IMG/VR virus record: IMGVR_UViG_3300031601_000028
Span: 1 to 26,280 of that record
Strand: one strand, 5' to 3'
Length of the DNA: 26,280 nt
DNA from: a virus
In this document: one piece after another, positions 11,168 to 22,161 of the stretch
Numbering within the stretch: position 1 is the first letter of the stretch
Layout: the number at the start of each line of letters is the position of its first letter
Position numbers and translations under genes: made by a program
Notes under the pieces: generated by a model
The model's input: only the letters and a program-made list of their open reading frames with translations
What the model was told of the DNA's origin: nothing
Database searches by the model: none

Positions 11168-13864
11168 ATGTTAGGATTAGGATTAGGAATAAACAAACAA
11201 AATGCGGGTGCAGTGGCCATGGCACCTACGCAAGACTTGCTATACAAACAAGCACCACTAACAAGTAAAAATAGCACAACTTTCTTCGGTGATTCTTCGG
11301 CAAACTTCGTATCAGAAATAGGTCACGAGTTCCAAAACACCCACCTAGTAGGAGATGGAGCAACAGCAATATCTTTCTATGCTGCATTAGATGGCAAATG
11401 GATAAGATACTACAACGTGAACACTTTAGCATGGGTAGAGGTAGTCTATAACCACGCAACTGGATTAATCCTCTCACTAGGTTTAGAAGTCCTTGAAATG
11501 TATACAGAGTTAGGCGATGTGTATGCTTTGGAAGAAGTTGTTGGAGATGTATTCTATAATCTGAAAGGTTCTGACAATGGAAGTACAACAGCTACAAGTA
11601 CAACGCTCGACACTTTTAGAGCAGGACGAAACGATATAGTTTCTAACTTCGTGCATGAGAATAGAGGGAAGGTTACTCATCAATTTGGATATAGTATTGG
11701 TTCAAGTAACGAGATTGTACCGCCTGTTATGGACAATATTAGAGGGTTAGATATTAGCAATCCGACAGGATACGATGCAATAGGTGGCCTCTTGCAATAT
11801 GTAGGCAAGATAAAACTACCTTTGTACCTAAAGGATAGCGGTGCATTGAAAGGTAACGGTACAGACAACTACATTGATTTAGGACTTGCACCCATTGACT
11901 CCGCTGATTGGTATTGGGAAGTGTTAGGGAAATTCAACAGTTTAGATAGTACATTTGAACTAAATGGTTCACGAGAAGCAACTAACAATGATAATTTTCA
12001 TTGGGGCATTAACCCTAACGATACTTGGCAACTAGGGTATAAAAACGATACAGAAAGGAGTGTAATTTCGGCTGATACAGATTTACACATTTTTAAATGT
12101 TGTGGCAATGGCAAATTTTATATTGACGATGTTTTAACTATAGATAAATCACTTGTTATAGGAAATATAGCAACAATAGTTTTATGGTTAGGTGGCAGAA
12201 ATTTAGATGGTTCACTAATATATCCGTCTAACTTCACCGCTCTATATTCAAAAATAGTTTATCAGGGCGAGACGTTGCAGTACATTCCTTTTAGTGGATA
12301 CGCCCCATCGACAGACTTAGCGGCTTATTCGTACATCGACAAGGCAGGGACGAACGCAGAATATACTTTAGAAGGTACTGTGGGTGCAAGCAATATAGTT
12401 GCACAAGATTCCTACCACGAGAACATGACGAATGGGTTTGACTTATGGCAGAATGATACAGATTCAACTTATTATAGAGTTCCATTCGATGAAGATGGAA
12501 ATTCGATATTGACAAGTGGGGGAACGCTTGCGGGTTACACATGGGTATCACGTCACCCTCAACCTTCAAACCACCTTCTTCCTTGCGAAACTAAATTTGA
12601 GATGGCAAGAGAGCCTATGATAGTTCAACATACTAACTTTTTCAGAGATGATGCTATGCGGACTATGGACTATGATGATATATTCGACTTCAAAAATAAA
12701 ATCTTCGTGAGAGATAAAGACATATATAAAGACAGATTATTAGTATATAAAAGCGAATTAAGTGGAAGTGCTTTAACGAGAGCAATCAATTACACTTCAC
12801 CGTATGAAGAGTATTTCAGAATAGAAATGCTTGCGGGGTTAATGGACTTTTCTATTGCAAATGCAGATAATGTGAAATGGTATTTTCCAGATGGCACAAC
12901 ATCAACTGCGGATAAACCCGCTAAGACATTAGCATCAGATGGAATTGTTTATCTGACGTGTAGTGATTTTAGCAAAAGCAATATAGAGATAAAGGATAAT
13001 GGAACAGATGCAAAATATGTAGGGGATACGAGTGACTTCCCTAATTTTATATACTACGCATCCTTCTACAGCACATCAGTAACAGGAGATGTTGCAGATA
13101 TAAAAGCAACAAACACCGCAATCTTCTACAACACCGCAGTAACAGGAGATGTTGCAGATATAAAAGCAACATACTACGCAAACTTCGGCGGCACATCAGT
13201 AACAGGAGATGTTGCAGATATAAAAGCAACATACTACGCAAGCTTCGCCAGCACCGAAGTAACAGGAGATGTTGCAGATATAAAAGCAACAAACACCGCA
13301 TCCTTCTACAACACCGCAGTAACAGGAGATGTTGCAGATATAAAAGCAACATACTACGCAAACTTCGGCGGCACATCAGTAACAGGAGATGTTGCAGATA
13401 TAAAAGCAACAAACACCGCACGCTTCTACAACACAGCGGTAACAGGAGATGTTGCAGATATAAAAGCAACAAACATCGCACGCTTCTACAACACAGCGGT
13501 AACAGGAGATGTTGCAGATATAAAAGCAACAAACATCGCATACTTCTACAACACAGCGGTAACAGGAGATTTGGGTGGATTGCACCCAATAACAAATTAT
13601 TTAAATCTATCTAGCACAACTGTATATGGTGCTTACACACAAGTTACAGGAACGAGCGTTCCGTCCACCACAGACCTTTCAGATACATCAATGACAGCAA
13701 CGGACATGGATAATACATTAATTGCGTATGCGGCAACAACAAGAAACGGTGGTTCATTTACAGCAACAAATATGACTAGAACATCGGCATCAGATGCGGC
13801 GGTTGCAACTTTAGAGGGTTCCCCTAGAAACTGGACTATTTCTGACATAACTAAAGTAGTATAA
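11168..13864 (+). CDS. Large modular surface protein with LamG-like domain and LRR-like repeats
   Basis: An 898-aa protein of probable adhesion function, coded on the head side of the gene order rather than with the tail tip. An N-terminal segment (residues 1-140) has strands like those of fibre N-termini (GHEFQNTHLVGDGATAISFY). Residues about 225-375 form a LamG/concanavalin-like jelly-roll (LKGNGTDNYIDLGLAP, GNGKFYIDDVL, YSKIVYQGETLQYIPFSG). Residues about 618-801 are 20-aa repeats of type V-T-G-D-V-A-D-I-K-A-T with a variable half, resembling short bacterial leucine-rich-like repeats (later NYLNLSSTTVYG). The C-terminal 80 residues (TATDMDNTLIAYAATTRNGG ... GSPRNWTISDITKVV) resemble the cap found after such repeats. 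Start ATG 11168 has a GGCGGTG-type RBS. A capsid fibre or receptor-binding role is inferred; a tail fibre is the alternative. Confidence 0.6.
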   Translation: MLGLGLGINKQNAGAVAMAPTQDLLYKQAPLTSKNSTTFFGDSSANFVSEIGHEFQNTHLVGDGATAISFYAALDGKWIRYYNVNTLAWVEVVYNHATGLILSLGLEVLEMYTELGDVYALEEVVGDVFYNLKGSDNGSTTATSTTLDTFRAGRNDIVSNFVHENRGKVTHQFGYSIGSSNEIVPPVMDNIRGLDISNPTGYDAIGGLLQYVGKIKLPLYLKDSGALKGNGTDNYIDLGLAPIDSADWYWEVLGKFNSLDSTFELNGSREATNNDNFHWGINPNDTWQLGYKNDTERSVISADTDLHIFKCCGNGKFYIDDVLTIDKSLVIGNIATIVLWLGGRNLDGSLIYPSNFTALYSKIVYQGETLQYIPFSGYAPSTDLAAYSYIDKAGTNAEYTLEGTVGASNIVAQDSYHENMTNGFDLWQNDTDSTYYRVPFDEDGNSILTSGGTLAGYTWVSRHPQPSNHLLPCETKFEMAREPMIVQHTNFFRDDAMRTMDYDDIFDFKNKIFVRDKDIYKDRLLVYKSELSGSALTRAINYTSPYEEYFRIEMLAGLMDFSIANADNVKWYFPDGTTSTADKPAKTLASDGIVYLTCSDFSKSNIEIKDNGTDAKYVGDTSDFPNFIYYASFYSTSVTGDVADIKATNTAIFYNTAVTGDVADIKATYYANFGGTSVTGDVADIKATYYASFASTEVTGDVADIKATNTASFYNTAVTGDVADIKATYYANFGGTSVTGDVADIKATNTARFYNTAVTGDVADIKATNIARFYNTAVTGDVADIKATNIAYFYNTAVTGDLGGLHPITNYLNLSSTTVYGAYTQVTGTSVPSTTDLSDTSMTATDMDNTLIAYAATTRNGGSFTATNMTRTSASDAAVATLEGSPRNWTISDITKVV
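13051..13570 (+). repeat. 60-bp in-frame tandem repeat array, eight full units
   Basis: Eight consecutive 60-bp units (13081-13560) with a half unit before and ten bases of a ninth after. The first 30 bp of each unit are identical in all eight copies, including silent positions; the second 30 bp vary. One codon (13121 and every 60 bp after) reads ATC, AAC, AGC, TCC, AAC, CGC, CGC, TAC. Units 2 and 5 (13141, 13321) are identical, and units 1 and 4 differ in that one codon only, indicating duplication of a 180-bp block. The last three units share the silent variant ACAGCG. Confidence 0.95.
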
Positions 13865-17769: not shown

Positions 17770-18099
17770 ATGAAAAAAGATTTATTTGAACTAAAATTAA
17801 AAGAAGAATCAATCGAGATAGAAGGTAATAAAATAATAGTAAAAGAACTTACGGCAGGAGAAGCATCAAAGTATCAACATTCTTTGTATACATTTGTTAG
17901 CGGAAAGCCAGTGGTAAAGGTTGAAGCTGCGGAATTGAAGTTGATAATTCTTACATGCCACGATGAAGAAGGTAATAAATATTTTGAAATGTCAGATTTA
18001 GAGAACATTAAAAAAATGCCTTCGAGAATATCAGAGCAATTATACAACATTGCTAAAAAATTAAACGATCCTCCAAAGGAAGAAGTAGTAAAAAACTAA
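17770..18099 (+). CDS. Tail assembly chaperone, unshifted product (gpG analogue)
   Basis: A 109-aa chaperone that coats the tape measure during tail assembly. The sequence (MKKDLFELKLKEESIEIEGNKIIVKELTAGEASKYQHSL...) has a strand-rich N-terminus and helical C-terminus of the usual type. The last codons are GTA AAA AAC TAA, so the stop lies directly after an A AAA AAC heptamer at 18090-18096, the place where a -1 shift yields the longer product. It starts immediately after the previous stop (TAAATG). The tape measure gene follows, as in lambda-like G/GT/H order. Confidence 0.82.
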   Translation: MKKDLFELKLKEESIEIEGNKIIVKELTAGEASKYQHSLYTFVSGKPVVKVEAAELKLIILTCHDEEGNKYFEMSDLENIKKMPSRISEQLYNIAKKLNDPPKEEVVKN

Positions 18100-18210
18100 C
18101 AAGCAATCCATTCAGGCTGTTTTTATATCGTTTAGCTTGCGAACTAGGAAAGACGGTTCGTGAGTTAGAACGAGAATTAACAGCAACAGACGTTGCAGAA
18201 TGGATTGCTT
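18090..18210 (+). promoter_or_regulatory. Programmed -1 frameshift signal with long-range stem
   Basis: The slippery heptamer A AAA AAC (18090-18096) fits the X XXY YYZ rule and is followed at once by the zero-frame TAA. After a 4-nt spacer, AAGCAATCCATTC (18101-18113) is perfectly complementary to GAATGGATTGCTT (18198-18210). This is a 13-bp stem closing an 84-nt loop, all inside the shifted coding region. A downstream stem at this distance is the expected stimulator; long-range pairing of this kind is less usual than a local hairpin or pseudoknot. Confidence 0.8.
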
Positions 18211-18251
18211 ACTTTGAATATCTTGAAGAATTGAGAGGTGATAAAAAGTGA
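18096..18251 (+). CDS. Tail chaperone extension made by -1 frameshift (gpT analogue)
   Basis: This frame has no independent start codon at its head or RBS, but codes a well-formed helical segment, N-P-F-R-L-F-L-Y-R-L-A-C-E-L-G-K-T-V-R-E, then LERELTATDVAEWIAYFEYLEEL, the type of sequence that ends shifted tail chaperones in Firmicute phages. After slippage on A AAA AAC (18090-18096) reading resumes with CTA at 18096, adding 51 residues to the 109 of the upstream frame (160 aa in all) and ending at TGA 18249-18251. The end overlaps the GTG start of the tape measure by four bases. The shifted product should link the chaperone to the tail tube subunit. Confidence 0.82.
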   Translation, partial: LTSNPFRLFLYRLACELGKTVRELERELTATDVAEWIAYFEYLEELRGDKK

Positions 18252-19786
18252 TAGACGTAGGAACGCTAGTGATGAAAGTTGCAGCTGATACAAGCAAGTT
18301 TACGAGTGGAATCGGTAAAGTGACTAAGTTAGTTGGTGGAATTGCTAAAGCAGCAGCAGTTGCAGGATTAGCAGCAGGAGCAGGACTTGCAGCGATAGGT
18401 AAACAAGCTATAGATTTAGCACAAGAGCAAGAACAAGCAGAAGCAAGACTCGAAAGTATAGGTAAAAAAGTTGCTGGTGCAACAGATTTGCAGATTGAAA
18501 GTTTGAAAGAGTTAGCTGCCGAAACACAAAAATACACAACATTCGGTGACGAAGTCATAATTGCTGGTCAATCTCAAATATTGTCTTTTGGAGCAACAGC
18601 AGAACAAACAGAAGCTTTAACAGGTTCGTTGGTTGATATGTTAGCAGCTACAAAAGGAACTACAGCAACTCAAGAAGATGCTATCAATGCAGCTAATATC
18701 TTAGGTAAGGCATTAGATGGACAGGCTGGATCTTTGAGTCGTGTTGGTATATTGCTTAACGAAGAACAAGAAGCACTTATTAAGAACGGAACACAAGCAG
18801 AGAGAGCAGCAGCGCTTGTGGACATACTAGAATCCAATTATGGAGGATTAGCAGAAACACTTGCCAAAACTTCAGCAGGACAAATGCAACAAGTTAAAAA
18901 CGCACTTGGCGATATAGGAGAAAGAATAGGCTTTATGCTTCTTCCAAAACTTAATGATTTTTTAAAGTGGGTTACGTCTAATATGCCAAAGATTGAATCA
19001 TTTCTTACTAAGGCAATGGATAATGGAGTAAAAGCATTTGACTATGCAGCTAACTTTGTAGATACAAAACTAATACCTATTTTTAATAAAATTAGCGATT
19101 GGTGGGCAATAAATGGAGAAGCAGTAGGCACAAAGTCAAAGGAAATCTTTGACAAAGTTGTAGCAAATGCCAAAATAATGTGGGACTTTTTCACAGTTCA
19201 TATAATGCCAATGTTAAGTGATTTTGTGGGATTTGTTATGGAAAGAGTGCCGCCAATATTTGATGTAATGAAAAGGGTATTCGACGGAATAATGAAAGTA
19301 GTCAAACCAGTATGGAATATATTTGAGAAAGTATTGTATCCGGCAATTAAATTAGTTGTAAATTATGCAATGGATCATCTTGAAAGTTTGCTAGATATCA
19401 CAACAACAGTATTTGAAGCTATGCTTTCACCAATACAAAGTGTAGTTGAAGTTATAAGTGGTATTGTGGATTGGTTCGATAAGCTATTCGGAAAGATGGA
19501 CGATTACTCTAACAAAGATATAAAAGCGCCAAAGGTTGAAACACCGCTAGGGTTTGATGATGGACTACCCGAGTTAGGCACAAACACCTATACACCAGGG
19601 ATTTTAACAGCACAACAGTTGTCAGGTAGCAACGAATCAGTTACGCCAATGACAAGCAATTCAAGAAGCAAAGCAGGAGATGTAAACATAACTATTAGCA
19701 ATCCATCATTTAGCAACAAACGTGACGTAGATAGAACCATGAACCTAATGGTAGGCAGATTGAAACTTGAGGGAGTGAATCCATAA
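18248..19786 (+). CDS. Tail tape measure protein
   Basis: A 512-aa protein that sets tail length and is ejected with DNA. It starts at GTG 18248 within the stop of the chaperone extension (GTGA), after GAGAGGTG. The N-terminal VMKVAADTSKFTSGIGKV is the usual opening of these proteins. A hydrophobic Gly/Ala segment follows (LVGGIAKAAAVAGLAAGAG, about 28-47), then helices such as EQEQAEARLESIGKKV and QYTTFGDEV-like blocks. A typical motif LSRVGILLNEEQEALIKNGTQAERAAAL lies near 170. The C-terminal part has membrane-active helices and a polar end. At about 0.15 nm per residue the tail would be near 75 nm; that figure is a rule-of-thumb inference. The stop overlaps the next ATG. Confidence 0.88.
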   Translation: MIDVGTLVMKVAADTSKFTSGIGKVTKLVGGIAKAAAVAGLAAGAGLAAIGKQAIDLAQEQEQAEARLESIGKKVAGATDLQIESLKELAAETQKYTTFGDEVIIAGQSQILSFGATAEQTEALTGSLVDMLAATKGTTATQEDAINAANILGKALDGQAGSLSRVGILLNEEQEALIKNGTQAERAAALVDILESNYGGLAETLAKTSAGQMQQVKNALGDIGERIGFMLLPKLNDFLKWVTSNMPKIESFLTKAMDNGVKAFDYAANFVDTKLIPIFNKISDWWAINGEAVGTKSKEIFDKVVANAKIMWDFFTVHIMPMLSDFVGFVMERVPPIFDVMKRVFDGIMKVVKPVWNIFEKVLYPAIKLVVNYAMDHLESLLDITTTVFEAMLSPIQSVVEVISGIVDWFDKLFGKMDDYSNKDIKAPKVETPLGFDDGLPELGTNTYTPGILTAQQLSGSNESVTPMTSNSRSKAGDVNITISNPSFSNKRDVDRTMNLMVGRLKLEGVNP

Positions 19787-22161
19787 TGGCTTATACACTA
19801 AAAATAAATGCAGTAGATAAAACCTCTTTATGGCTTCGACCTTCAACGGTTATTGAAAAAGGTGCAGATGATAAGAATTATGCAGAATTTCAGTTAATAG
19901 CAAAAGCTACAGACTTGGGCGCTAGTGATGGATTAATAGCAGGACAAGATGTTAAGATATACGAAGATACAACACTTATATTTGGGGGAGTGGTCAAAGA
20001 ATTTAAGATGGACAACTATGAGCCAGGCATAGGGAGCGATAAAAAGCTCCTTGTGTCAGTAAGTTGCAAGGATTACAACGACATTCCATCGAGAAGAGTA
20101 ACTTCATCATATTTCACAACTACGACAGCAGGAGCCATTGTGACAGCTATGGTTGACGATGTATTGGGCTTAACAGGATACGATGAAGGAATCACAGCCG
20201 GAACTATTTCAGCCGGTGCAACAATCGACATTTACTCAGTTAATGCAAAGACAGCTAAAGAAGTTCTTGACGACATGGCAGAAGCTTCAGGGTTCAAATG
20301 GTACATTAACAATGCAAAAGAATTAAACTTTATAGAAGATGATACCGTCACCGCAGCAGCACACGAACTACTAGAAACGGCACCAACATTCACAGATTTT
20401 AATATCACTAGAGTTTCAATATCACTAGAAAACTACCGTAATAAACAGTGGGTAACTGGATCGGTCGATTCAACAGGAACACTTGTCAATGTAGCGGTTG
20501 AAGACGCAGTGGAAATAACAGCAAGAGCAGGAATCGAGGGTGGTTCGGGTGTTTATGGAAATGTTATAAGTTCCGACGAATCACAGGACAGCACAGACGC
20601 AGAAGCGGTAGGGGACAACGCAATCAAGCGTTATGGTACAATACCCTATGTAATAGAATTTGAATCAGGTACTAATGACTGGGTGGCAGGGACAAAATTA
20701 AAGGTTAATGTTCCGTCAATGGGAATAAACACAGATACTTACTTCTTGATTGAAAATGTAACCCTTGAAGATGTTGGAACAGTTTTTAGGTCAGTAATAA
20801 CAGCCACAAGGCGAGATGGTACGGAGTTTTCAACACAGAGGTCAGAAGGCAGCATTGAATATTTCGCAAAGATGGCAAAGAAAGCAAGTGCAGCCAGTTC
20901 GACAGTTGGAGATGTGGAAGTTCAAACACTTGAAGTAGCTAACGAAACAGCCTATACAGCGTTTACAACTGAACAAGTATTGGATAGTATAGATGTTGAC
21001 TTCAAAGAAGATACGATAATGAATTTTCAAGTTAGAACGGATTTGACAGCTTCGGAGACGTCAGCTTATACGGTGAAATTAAGAGTTGATGGAGTAGCAG
21101 AAAAAACAACAGTTTGGTATATGGCAGACACAAACAAAGATGGCAGAATGTTCAACGGTGCAATAACAGGCATAGCAGCAGGAACCAAAACAGTTGACGT
21201 AACAGTGACACCAGTATCAGGAAATGGTACAATAGCAATAGATGAGTATCAATTGACTTTGATTATTGCGGATTCAGTGGTTGAACCAGTAGAATCGGGA
21301 GCCTCCGACGGTTATGTTTTAGGTGGCGAAAATTCCGTCGGCACTAAAGTATTGACAAATGATGGTTTTAACCCCGAATTAAATGCGTGGACAAATAAAA
21401 CAGACCTGCCAAGTCCGGCAAGAGAGGAATTTCCAACGGTTAATATATCGGGTAAAGGTTATACTTTTGGGGGCAATGATTTAGGTGGAGGAATCCAAGA
21501 TAATGATGAATACGATTCGTCAGGTAACAGTTGGGCAAATAAAACAGACCTGCCAAGTCCGGCAAGGTACGCGGCAGGTGGGTTCGCTATTGACGACAAA
21601 GGTTATATATTAGGCGGTTACACGAGTTATTTATCAGATAATGACGAATATAATCCAATAGGTAACAGTTGGGCAAATAAAACAGACATACCCAGTCCCG
21701 CAAGGCGATATTTGCAGGGTGCTTATGCAGACACTAAGGGCTATATAATGGGCGGTAGAGCAGCTAGTACAGATTACAGATACGGTTTATCGGATAACGA
21801 TGAATACGATGCCTCCGGGGACAGTTGGGCAGCTAAAGCTAATATGTTGCTAGGTATGCAGCATCCGGGTATGGCTTCCATGTCGGGCAAGGTGTACGTA
21901 TTTGGGGGCTATGGTGCAGTTGCAGCCCAGACAAGGACTGACGAATACGATCCGAGCGGAAATAGTTGGACAAATAAAACACCAATGCCCAGTCCGGCTA
22001 GATATGCGAGTGCGTGTTTTTCTGTTAAGGATAAAGGGTATAGCTCGGGAGGGTATAAGAATTTATCGGACACTGATGAATATAACCCTACAGGAAACAG
22101 TTGGACAAGTAAAGCAAATACATTAGCTTCGAGAGAATACGCTTCCGGAGTTGCGTTATAG
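19786..22161 (+). CDS. Tail hub protein fused to jelly-roll and Kelch propeller
   Basis: A 791-aa tail-tip protein. Residues about 1-345 look like a gp27/gpD-type hub (ATG in TAATG with the tape measure). Features are the IFGGVVKEFKMDNYEPG strand pair, the DYNDIPSRRVTSSYF segment, the helix AKEVLDDMAEASGFKWYIN followed by KELNFIEDD, and late strands GINTDTYFLIENVTLEDVG. A beta-sandwich follows (about 380-500; AYTAFTTEQVLDSIDVDF..., then YTVKLRVDG). Residues 507-791 contain six Kelch repeats, each with a G-G pair, a D-E-Y and an S/A-W about 45-50 residues apart. No separate Dit gene is seen between tape measure and lysis genes, so this protein may combine hub, adaptor and receptor-binding roles. 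The Kelch disc is the likely cell-surface ligand. Confidence 0.75.
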   Translation: MAYTLKINAVDKTSLWLRPSTVIEKGADDKNYAEFQLIAKATDLGASDGLIAGQDVKIYEDTTLIFGGVVKEFKMDNYEPGIGSDKKLLVSVSCKDYNDIPSRRVTSSYFTTTTAGAIVTAMVDDVLGLTGYDEGITAGTISAGATIDIYSVNAKTAKEVLDDMAEASGFKWYINNAKELNFIEDDTVTAAAHELLETAPTFTDFNITRVSISLENYRNKQWVTGSVDSTGTLVNVAVEDAVEITARAGIEGGSGVYGNVISSDESQDSTDAEAVGDNAIKRYGTIPYVIEFESGTNDWVAGTKLKVNVPSMGINTDTYFLIENVTLEDVGTVFRSVITATRRDGTEFSTQRSEGSIEYFAKMAKKASAASSTVGDVEVQTLEVANETAYTAFTTEQVLDSIDVDFKEDTIMNFQVRTDLTASETSAYTVKLRVDGVAEKTTVWYMADTNKDGRMFNGAITGIAAGTKTVDVTVTPVSGNGTIAIDEYQLTLIIADSVVEPVESGASDGYVLGGENSVGTKVLTNDGFNPELNAWTNKTDLPSPAREEFPTVNISGKGYTFGGNDLGGGIQDNDEYDSSGNSWANKTDLPSPARYAAGGFAIDDKGYILGGYTSYLSDNDEYNPIGNSWANKTDIPSPARRYLQGAYADTKGYIMGGRAASTDYRYGLSDNDEYDASGDSWAAKANMLLGMQHPGMASMSGKVYVFGGYGAVAAQTRTDEYDPSGNSWTNKTPMPSPARYASACFSVKDKGYSSGGYKNLSDTDEYNPTGNSWTSKANTLASREYASGVAL
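21301..22158 (+). repeat. Six Kelch repeats, partly near-identical in DNA
   Basis: Six units of about 138-160 bp. A 31-bp identical block recurs at 21392-21422 and 21536-21566, and a 27-bp identical block at 21523-21549 and 21661-21687, whereas later units are more diverged. Each protein unit runs Y-x-x-G-G ... D-E-Y-x-x-x-G-N-S-W-x-x-K. The first unit lacks the full D-E-Y strand and the last ends with the strand ASGVAL, which suits circular closure of a six-blade disc. Confidence 0.85.

Follow-up and report, generated by a model that had tools for sequence, protein, structure and literature searches.

The window analysed here, the whole 26,280-nt stretch of the virus record IMGVR_UViG_3300031601_000028 (positions 1 to 26,280), carries a candidate -1 programmed frameshift site at the end of its gene for the tail assembly chaperone gpG. 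A Shine-Dalgarno (SD)-like element, a slippery heptamer and a branched RNA stem very probably form an IS911-like frameshift cassette there, which controls the ratio of gpG to the fusion protein gpGT. The site is conserved, the pairing that closes the stem is under selection at the level of RNA, and the SD-like element and an adjacent stop codon are conserved with it. These sequence patterns suggest that frameshifting occurs and that the stem raises its rate, and the homology with lambda G/GT points to the gpG:gpGT ratio as the quantity that is set. The elements of the locus are as follows.

17770..18099, plus strand: gpG-like tail assembly chaperone in frame 0, a 109-aa open reading frame (ORF; phrog_344 tail assembly chaperone, E=1.1e-13)
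18076..18082, plus strand: SD-like AAGGAAG, its GG separated from the heptamer by 10 nt (duplex with the anti-SD -4.9 kcal/mol, ranking in the best 4% of positions in gpG)
18090..18096, plus strand: slippery heptamer A_AAA_AAC (frame-0 reading GTA AAA AAC TAA)
18097..18099, plus strand: frame-0 stop TAA adjoining the 3' side of the heptamer (a stop here in 27/27 aligned homologues)
18096..18251, plus strand: gpT-like extension in the -1 frame, 51 aa and a stop codon, accessible only through a frameshift (phrog_337 tail protein, E=1.3e-8)
18248..19786, plus strand: tape measure protein, overlapping the end of gpT (phrog_991 tape measure, E=3.8e-16)

Based on the PHROG matches, the gene order gpG, gpT, tape measure is lambda-like. 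The locus has the features of the lambda G/GT type, with a gpG-family ORF upstream of the tape measure gene, and an X_XXY_YYZ heptamer near the gpG end together with an open -1 frame of the gpT family. The -1 frame at 18096-18251 translates as LTSNPFRLFLYRLACELGKTVRELERELTATDVAEWIAYFEYLEELRGDKK followed by a stop, and the predicted gpG-gpT fusion has 160 aa. An earlier note on this DNA, made from the letters alone, had put A AAA AAC directly 5' of the chaperone stop and read a 51-aa gpT-like tail in the -1 frame; the position of TAA is exactly as described, and the phrog_337 match agrees with the assignment to gpT.

Starting 4 nt 3' of the heptamer, two arms enclose most of the gpT coding region in a predicted branched fold, with the following parts.

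18101..18113, plus strand: 5' arm of the enclosing stem, AAGCAATCCATTC, SNPF codons in the -1 frame (conserved pairing and covariation)
18198..18210, plus strand: 3' arm of the enclosing stem, GAATGGATTGCTT, EWIA codons in the -1 frame (conserved pairing and covariation)
18128..18173, plus strand: predicted inner hairpin within the enclosing stem (minimum-energy fold)
18183..18196, plus strand: predicted small hairpin GCAAC-AGAC-GUUGC, the third branch of the junction (minimum-energy fold, window only)

The same note had pointed to a sequence four bases past the heptamer with its exact complement at 18198-18210, 84 nt away, and the arms are indeed complementary at 13/13 positions. They are the sole inverted repeat detected in 17770-18400 with the settings used. 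For the RNA of 18101-18210 the folding energy is -45.6 kcal/mol (z -8.5 relative to dinucleotide-shuffled sequences), and the minimum-energy fold is predicted to be a three-way junction in which the inner and the small hairpin are closed by the 13-bp helix. A 9-bp part of the inner hairpin, GCUUGCGAACU/GGUUCGUGAGU, is also formed with changed pairs in the homologue L167, as read from the folds, and this hairpin is not conserved in the Roseobacter-phage clade. No Rfam family matched in the window at the gathering threshold. The idea of the arms as a frameshift stimulator gains from the selection on their pairing described below, and is refined in that the stem closes a branched domain and stands with an SD-like element and an adjacent stop, and is not a bare duplex.

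Homologues were sought by scanning viral contigs with peptides and alignments, and cultured phage records were added. A total of 56 unique sequences with the heptamer, PFR and EWxAY fell into 24 clusters at 85% nucleotide identity (hereafter, xPFR clusters). Four contigs (L002, L073, L166 and L262) are the same virus as the window (100% identity) and were not counted as evidence. In gpG, the window, L167 and L255 form a single clade (support 100/100), very distant from the clade of the Roseobacter phages, with long branches and gpG similarity nearly gone; the cultured Roseobacter phages CRP-823, CRP-831, CRP-811 and CRP-406 have the same stem. A first DNA-pattern scan returned mostly non-homologues, a gpG protein search matched only the same virus, and two scans of bacterial genome contigs found no close relative. 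A plasmid search found only Piscirickettsia relatives, with 106 plasmid records carrying a gpT relative, often annotated DUF4035; those on Piscirickettsia salmonis plasmids (e.g., NZ_CP061196.1) are likely tail genes of phage origin.

The arms are themselves coding, and the SNPF codons of the 5' arm and the EWIA codons of the 3' arm are exact reverse complements in register. Homologues might keep the pairing just by keeping the protein, so any test must hold the protein fixed, and since the arms encode conserved gpT motifs with complementary codons, synonymous recoding is the fair null. A rival explanation is that protein conservation alone accounts for the complementary SNPF/DPF and EWIA/EWVA codons, in which case the frameshift would need no structure, as in lambda. 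In its favor, the exactly codon-complementary arms encode the best conserved motifs, and synonymous recoding alone already gives a mean pairing score of 8.30 in a fixed 12-bp register, based on local codon usage. The observed mean score over the 24 clusters is 10.48/12, about 11 standard deviations (SD of the mean 0.20) over that expectation, and the maximum of 5000 draws was 9.0. Correct partners also beat swapped arms: when the 3' arms were permuted among clusters the mean was 10.02 (SD 0.093), and 0/20000 permutations reached the observed value. In the window, 2/2000 synonymous recodings of gpT gave a perfect stem of at least 13 bp near the heptamer, and 0/2000 gave an equally stable fold (z -5.3). 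The whole-domain folds were stabler than the mean of their own synonymous recodings in all clusters, with a mean z of -2.9 for those other than the window. The statement that a 13-bp match is unlikely by chance stands, with the qualification that it has to be judged against synonymous recoding.

Conservation across the sample points in the same direction. The earlier note had asked whether homologues keep the slippery site and lose the pairing; both are kept in 24/24 clusters, for which presence of the heptamer was a selection criterion. The stem is within the minimum-energy fold of each of the 24, with mean core pair probabilities of 0.79-1.00. RNAalifold, which reports nested pairs only, was supplied with no structure and predicted exactly this helix as a nested stem, and nothing else. 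Among 27 aligned sequences, 90.2% of cells were paired and the covariation was 0.189, versus 0.146 when shuffled (0/500), and every slid register gave at most 0.088. The suggested search for covariation thus found compensatory changes in excess of both the protein-constrained and the arm-swap nulls.

Individual columns show how codon third positions follow their pairing partners. The pair 16/117 is A-U in 4, G-C in 21 and A.G in 2 of the 27 sequences (Fisher 8e-5 on the 25); N (AAY) pairs with a third-position T in an I/V codon, and D (GAY) with C. The pair 18/115 is never C.A (p 0.006), that is, a third-position C of N/D is never opposite a first-position A of I/V/M. The switch from A-U to G-C is also found within the window's own clade, where the window has AAGCAAUCCAU/AUGGAUUGCUU and L255 has AAGCGAUCCAU/AUGGAUCGCUU, with L167 on the window's side. 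On the coding strand, G.U cells number 21 versus 3 for A.C, which favors RNA of the coding strand over a DNA repeat, with codon choice also limiting such cells. Given this strand asymmetry, a DNA-level repeat was judged unlikely.

All 24 xPFR clusters have either A_AAA_AAC or G_GGA_AAC as the heptamer, gpT always beginning at the same codon, and a heptamer is found at this codon in most other gpT relatives too. G_GGA_AAC occurs in two lineages and, despite three base changes, still fits the slippery rule. Several homologues have a -1 frame stop (TGA) immediately 5' of the heptamer and the frame-0 stop immediately 3' of it, so that the frame switch must fall on the heptamer. Upstream, gpG codon -4 is GAG in 22/24 clusters (pooled GAG usage 45%), which places GAGG 7 nt 5' of the heptamer; the two exceptions are the window and L167, which have AAGGAAG instead. 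Stimulators already known mostly begin 5-8 nt downstream, and the search for SD-like ones covered 6-17 nt upstream (PMC4066793). Here the distance from the heptamer to the stem ranges from 4 nt in the window to 6 nt in most homologues. The locus thus has both parts of a cassette of the dnaX/IS911 type, namely an SD-like sequence within the range 6-17 nt 5' of the heptamer and, based on the synonymous null and the covariation, a selected RNA structure 4-10 nt after it.

The elements suggest how the cassette could work. A ribosome on A_AAA_AAC would have its mRNA channel entrance against a strong stem starting 4-6 nt downstream, while the 3' end of its 16S rRNA could pair with the SD-like element, 7-10 nt away on the 5' side, and a stop would be the next codon in frame 0. 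The resulting pause and tension would allow the tRNAs in the P and A sites to slip back by one base and pair again. The shifted ribosome would then open the stem and read gpT, giving a small amount of gpGT beside gpG. Ribosomes that do not shift would terminate immediately and never enter the stem, and the gpT coding region could therefore stay folded as a branched domain. A speculative extension, which we consider improbable, is that frameshifting is self-limiting and buffers the gpG:gpGT ratio against the translation rate. A shifting ribosome would melt the stem and hold it open until about 36 codons had been read to the far arm, a closely following ribosome would meet no stimulator, and no stem would exist until RNA polymerase was about 110 nt beyond the slippery site. 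If this were true, sister subfamilies with local hairpins would be without such a refractory period.

These sister subfamilies, gpT relatives without the PFR/EW combination, have no long stem and often a local hairpin 4-8 nt after the heptamer, several of which are stabler than their synonymous recodings (p 0.000-0.033). Moraxella-type phages (L062, L138, L149 and L163) have the hairpin GCCGAC-AAAA-GTCGGC or a variant, the DPLR-type contigs (L155, L121 and L158) pair the same 5' arm position (GAUCCGCUUAG) with nearby LAG codons, and ARPVR, L088 and L092 have a GC-rich hairpin of about 40 nt. L101 is also among the subfamilies with a local hairpin at this distance. No significant hairpin was found within 45 nt in the HPLR types and most RPERRF types, and no significant structure within 45 nt in the Psychrobacter/Acinetobacter phages L061, L064, L110 and L130. 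Single 170-nt folds of L061 and L064 suggest another enclosing stem, with its 3' part past the EW codons. In the Pelagibacter phage HTVC112P (L248), A_AAA_AAG occurs just past position 601, and 5 nt on there is a perfect 7-bp hairpin, AGCGACC...GGTCGCT. Across subfamilies, the structure keeps its 5' edge close to the heptamer and its 3' partner moves, from a few to about 84 nt away.

This geometry bears on the rival explanation that the conserved RNA stem serves some other function, such as a shield of the gpT mRNA against decay, an RNase III or other processing site between gpG and the tape measure gene, or tuning of tape measure expression. The RNA is selected and encloses an ORF that few ribosomes would translate, and a long helix could serve decay or processing. 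However, in nearly all clusters the stem's 5' edge lies 4-6 nt past the heptamer, unrelated hairpins lie at the same place in sister subfamilies, and the tape measure start at 18248 is outside the stem. A fixed 5' edge with a moving partner fits action on a heptamer-paused ribosome better than decay or processing, and we regard another job as quite unlikely. The protein by-product explanation, largely refuted by the nulls, is very unlikely. It is extremely unlikely that gpT arises from transcriptional slippage along the A run, or from internal initiation using the SD-like sequence: both the A run and the purine-rich element are present, but the run has only six A and the two G_GGA_AAC lineages keep the slippery rule and not the run, the window's -1 frame has no ATG, GTG or TTG upstream of or at the gpT start (near the SD-like element), and a stem 4-6 nt downstream is what is expected for ribosomal shifting.

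Several points weigh against the interpretation as a stem-stimulated frameshift cassette. Part of the arm complementarity is due to conserved amino acids. The clusters are related, so the permutation values are not true probabilities, and by parsimony the pair 16/117 changed only 4 times, and the 3 independent contrasts leave a sign test underpowered. Of the window's 13 bp, those at columns 12-13 are not shared generally, leaving a common core of about 11 bp. The SD signal is modest (energy -5.96 versus a synonymous null of -4.67, SD of the mean 0.54, z about -2.4). Because lambda-type tail chaperones shift at a low level with no known stimulator (PMC5009743), a stem is not a strict requirement.

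Elsewhere in the window, an 898-aa ORF (11168-13864), which had no Pfam match, contains a 60-bp tandem repeat at 13051-13570 with 8.6 copies encoding VTGDVADIKAT units, also detected with a 180-bp period. A 791-aa tail-region protein (19786-22161) has C-terminal Kelch repeats (PF24681 8e-16, PF01344 5e-12). The start of the ORF at 23872-25071 matches only the last part of Peptidase_M23 (PF01551 positions 45-88); the start given for it may lie too far downstream, or the domain may be truncated.

Frameshifted tail chaperones, cassettes of an SD and a stem, and branched stimulators are each already known. As in lambda G/GT, the window has gpG-gpT before the tape measure gene, a putative -1 shift site near the gpG end and a short T extension (PMC5009743); it differs from the lambda heptamer G_GGA_AAG (PMC7618472) and in its conserved stem, SD-like element and adjacent stop. 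A review counts certain tailed phages among the cases without an evident stimulator (PMC5009743). E. coli dnaX likewise combines an SD-like element, an A-rich heptamer and a downstream stem-loop (PMC5009743, PMC7618472), but its stem-loop is simple and its shift truncating with about 50% efficiency, whereas the window has a long branched stem and a predicted shift that extends the product. IS911 and the IS3 family have stimulators that are large and branched (PMC5009743, PMC4066793); the geometry that the earlier note called unusual is therefore so for tail chaperones and is not unprecedented. IS3-family structures span 17 to 131 nt, and the window's stem domain 110 nt. IS911 differs in having a transposase gene and A_AAA_AAG, in place of A_AAA_AAC with an immediate frame-0 stop in a tail chaperone, and the window's helix pairs codons near both ends of the shifted ORF. 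The 4-kb interaction of BYDV and the apical-loop/internal-loop pseudoknots of IS3411 type (44-104 nt) likewise use stimulator sequence far 3' (PMC7618472, PMC5009743); those are pseudoknots, whereas the window is predicted to form a nested helix with a folded interior, as modeled by RNAalifold, which gives nested pairs only.

In the open-licence literature searched, no description of RNA structure at tail-chaperone -1 sites was found bar one prophage-cluster hairpin, from a survey in which, among five prophage clusters, the predicted hairpin was considered relevant for just one (PMC4066793), and a conserved gene-enclosing stem in tail chaperones appears to be undescribed there. The deposited records of the Roseobacter phages CRP-823, CRP-811, CRP-831 and CRP-406 (L060, L246, L247 and L251) annotate gpG and the tape measure, with no gpT ORF or frameshift, and a 2025 roseophage paper does not mention frameshifting (PMC12629253); the frameshift model would explain the gpT gene left unannotated in these records. 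Frameshifting in tail-chaperone genes determines how much of one assembly protein is made relative to a second. The presence of the stem across deeply diverged phages, with the partner arm changed in sister subfamilies, indicates that many tail chaperones likely use RNA stimulators.
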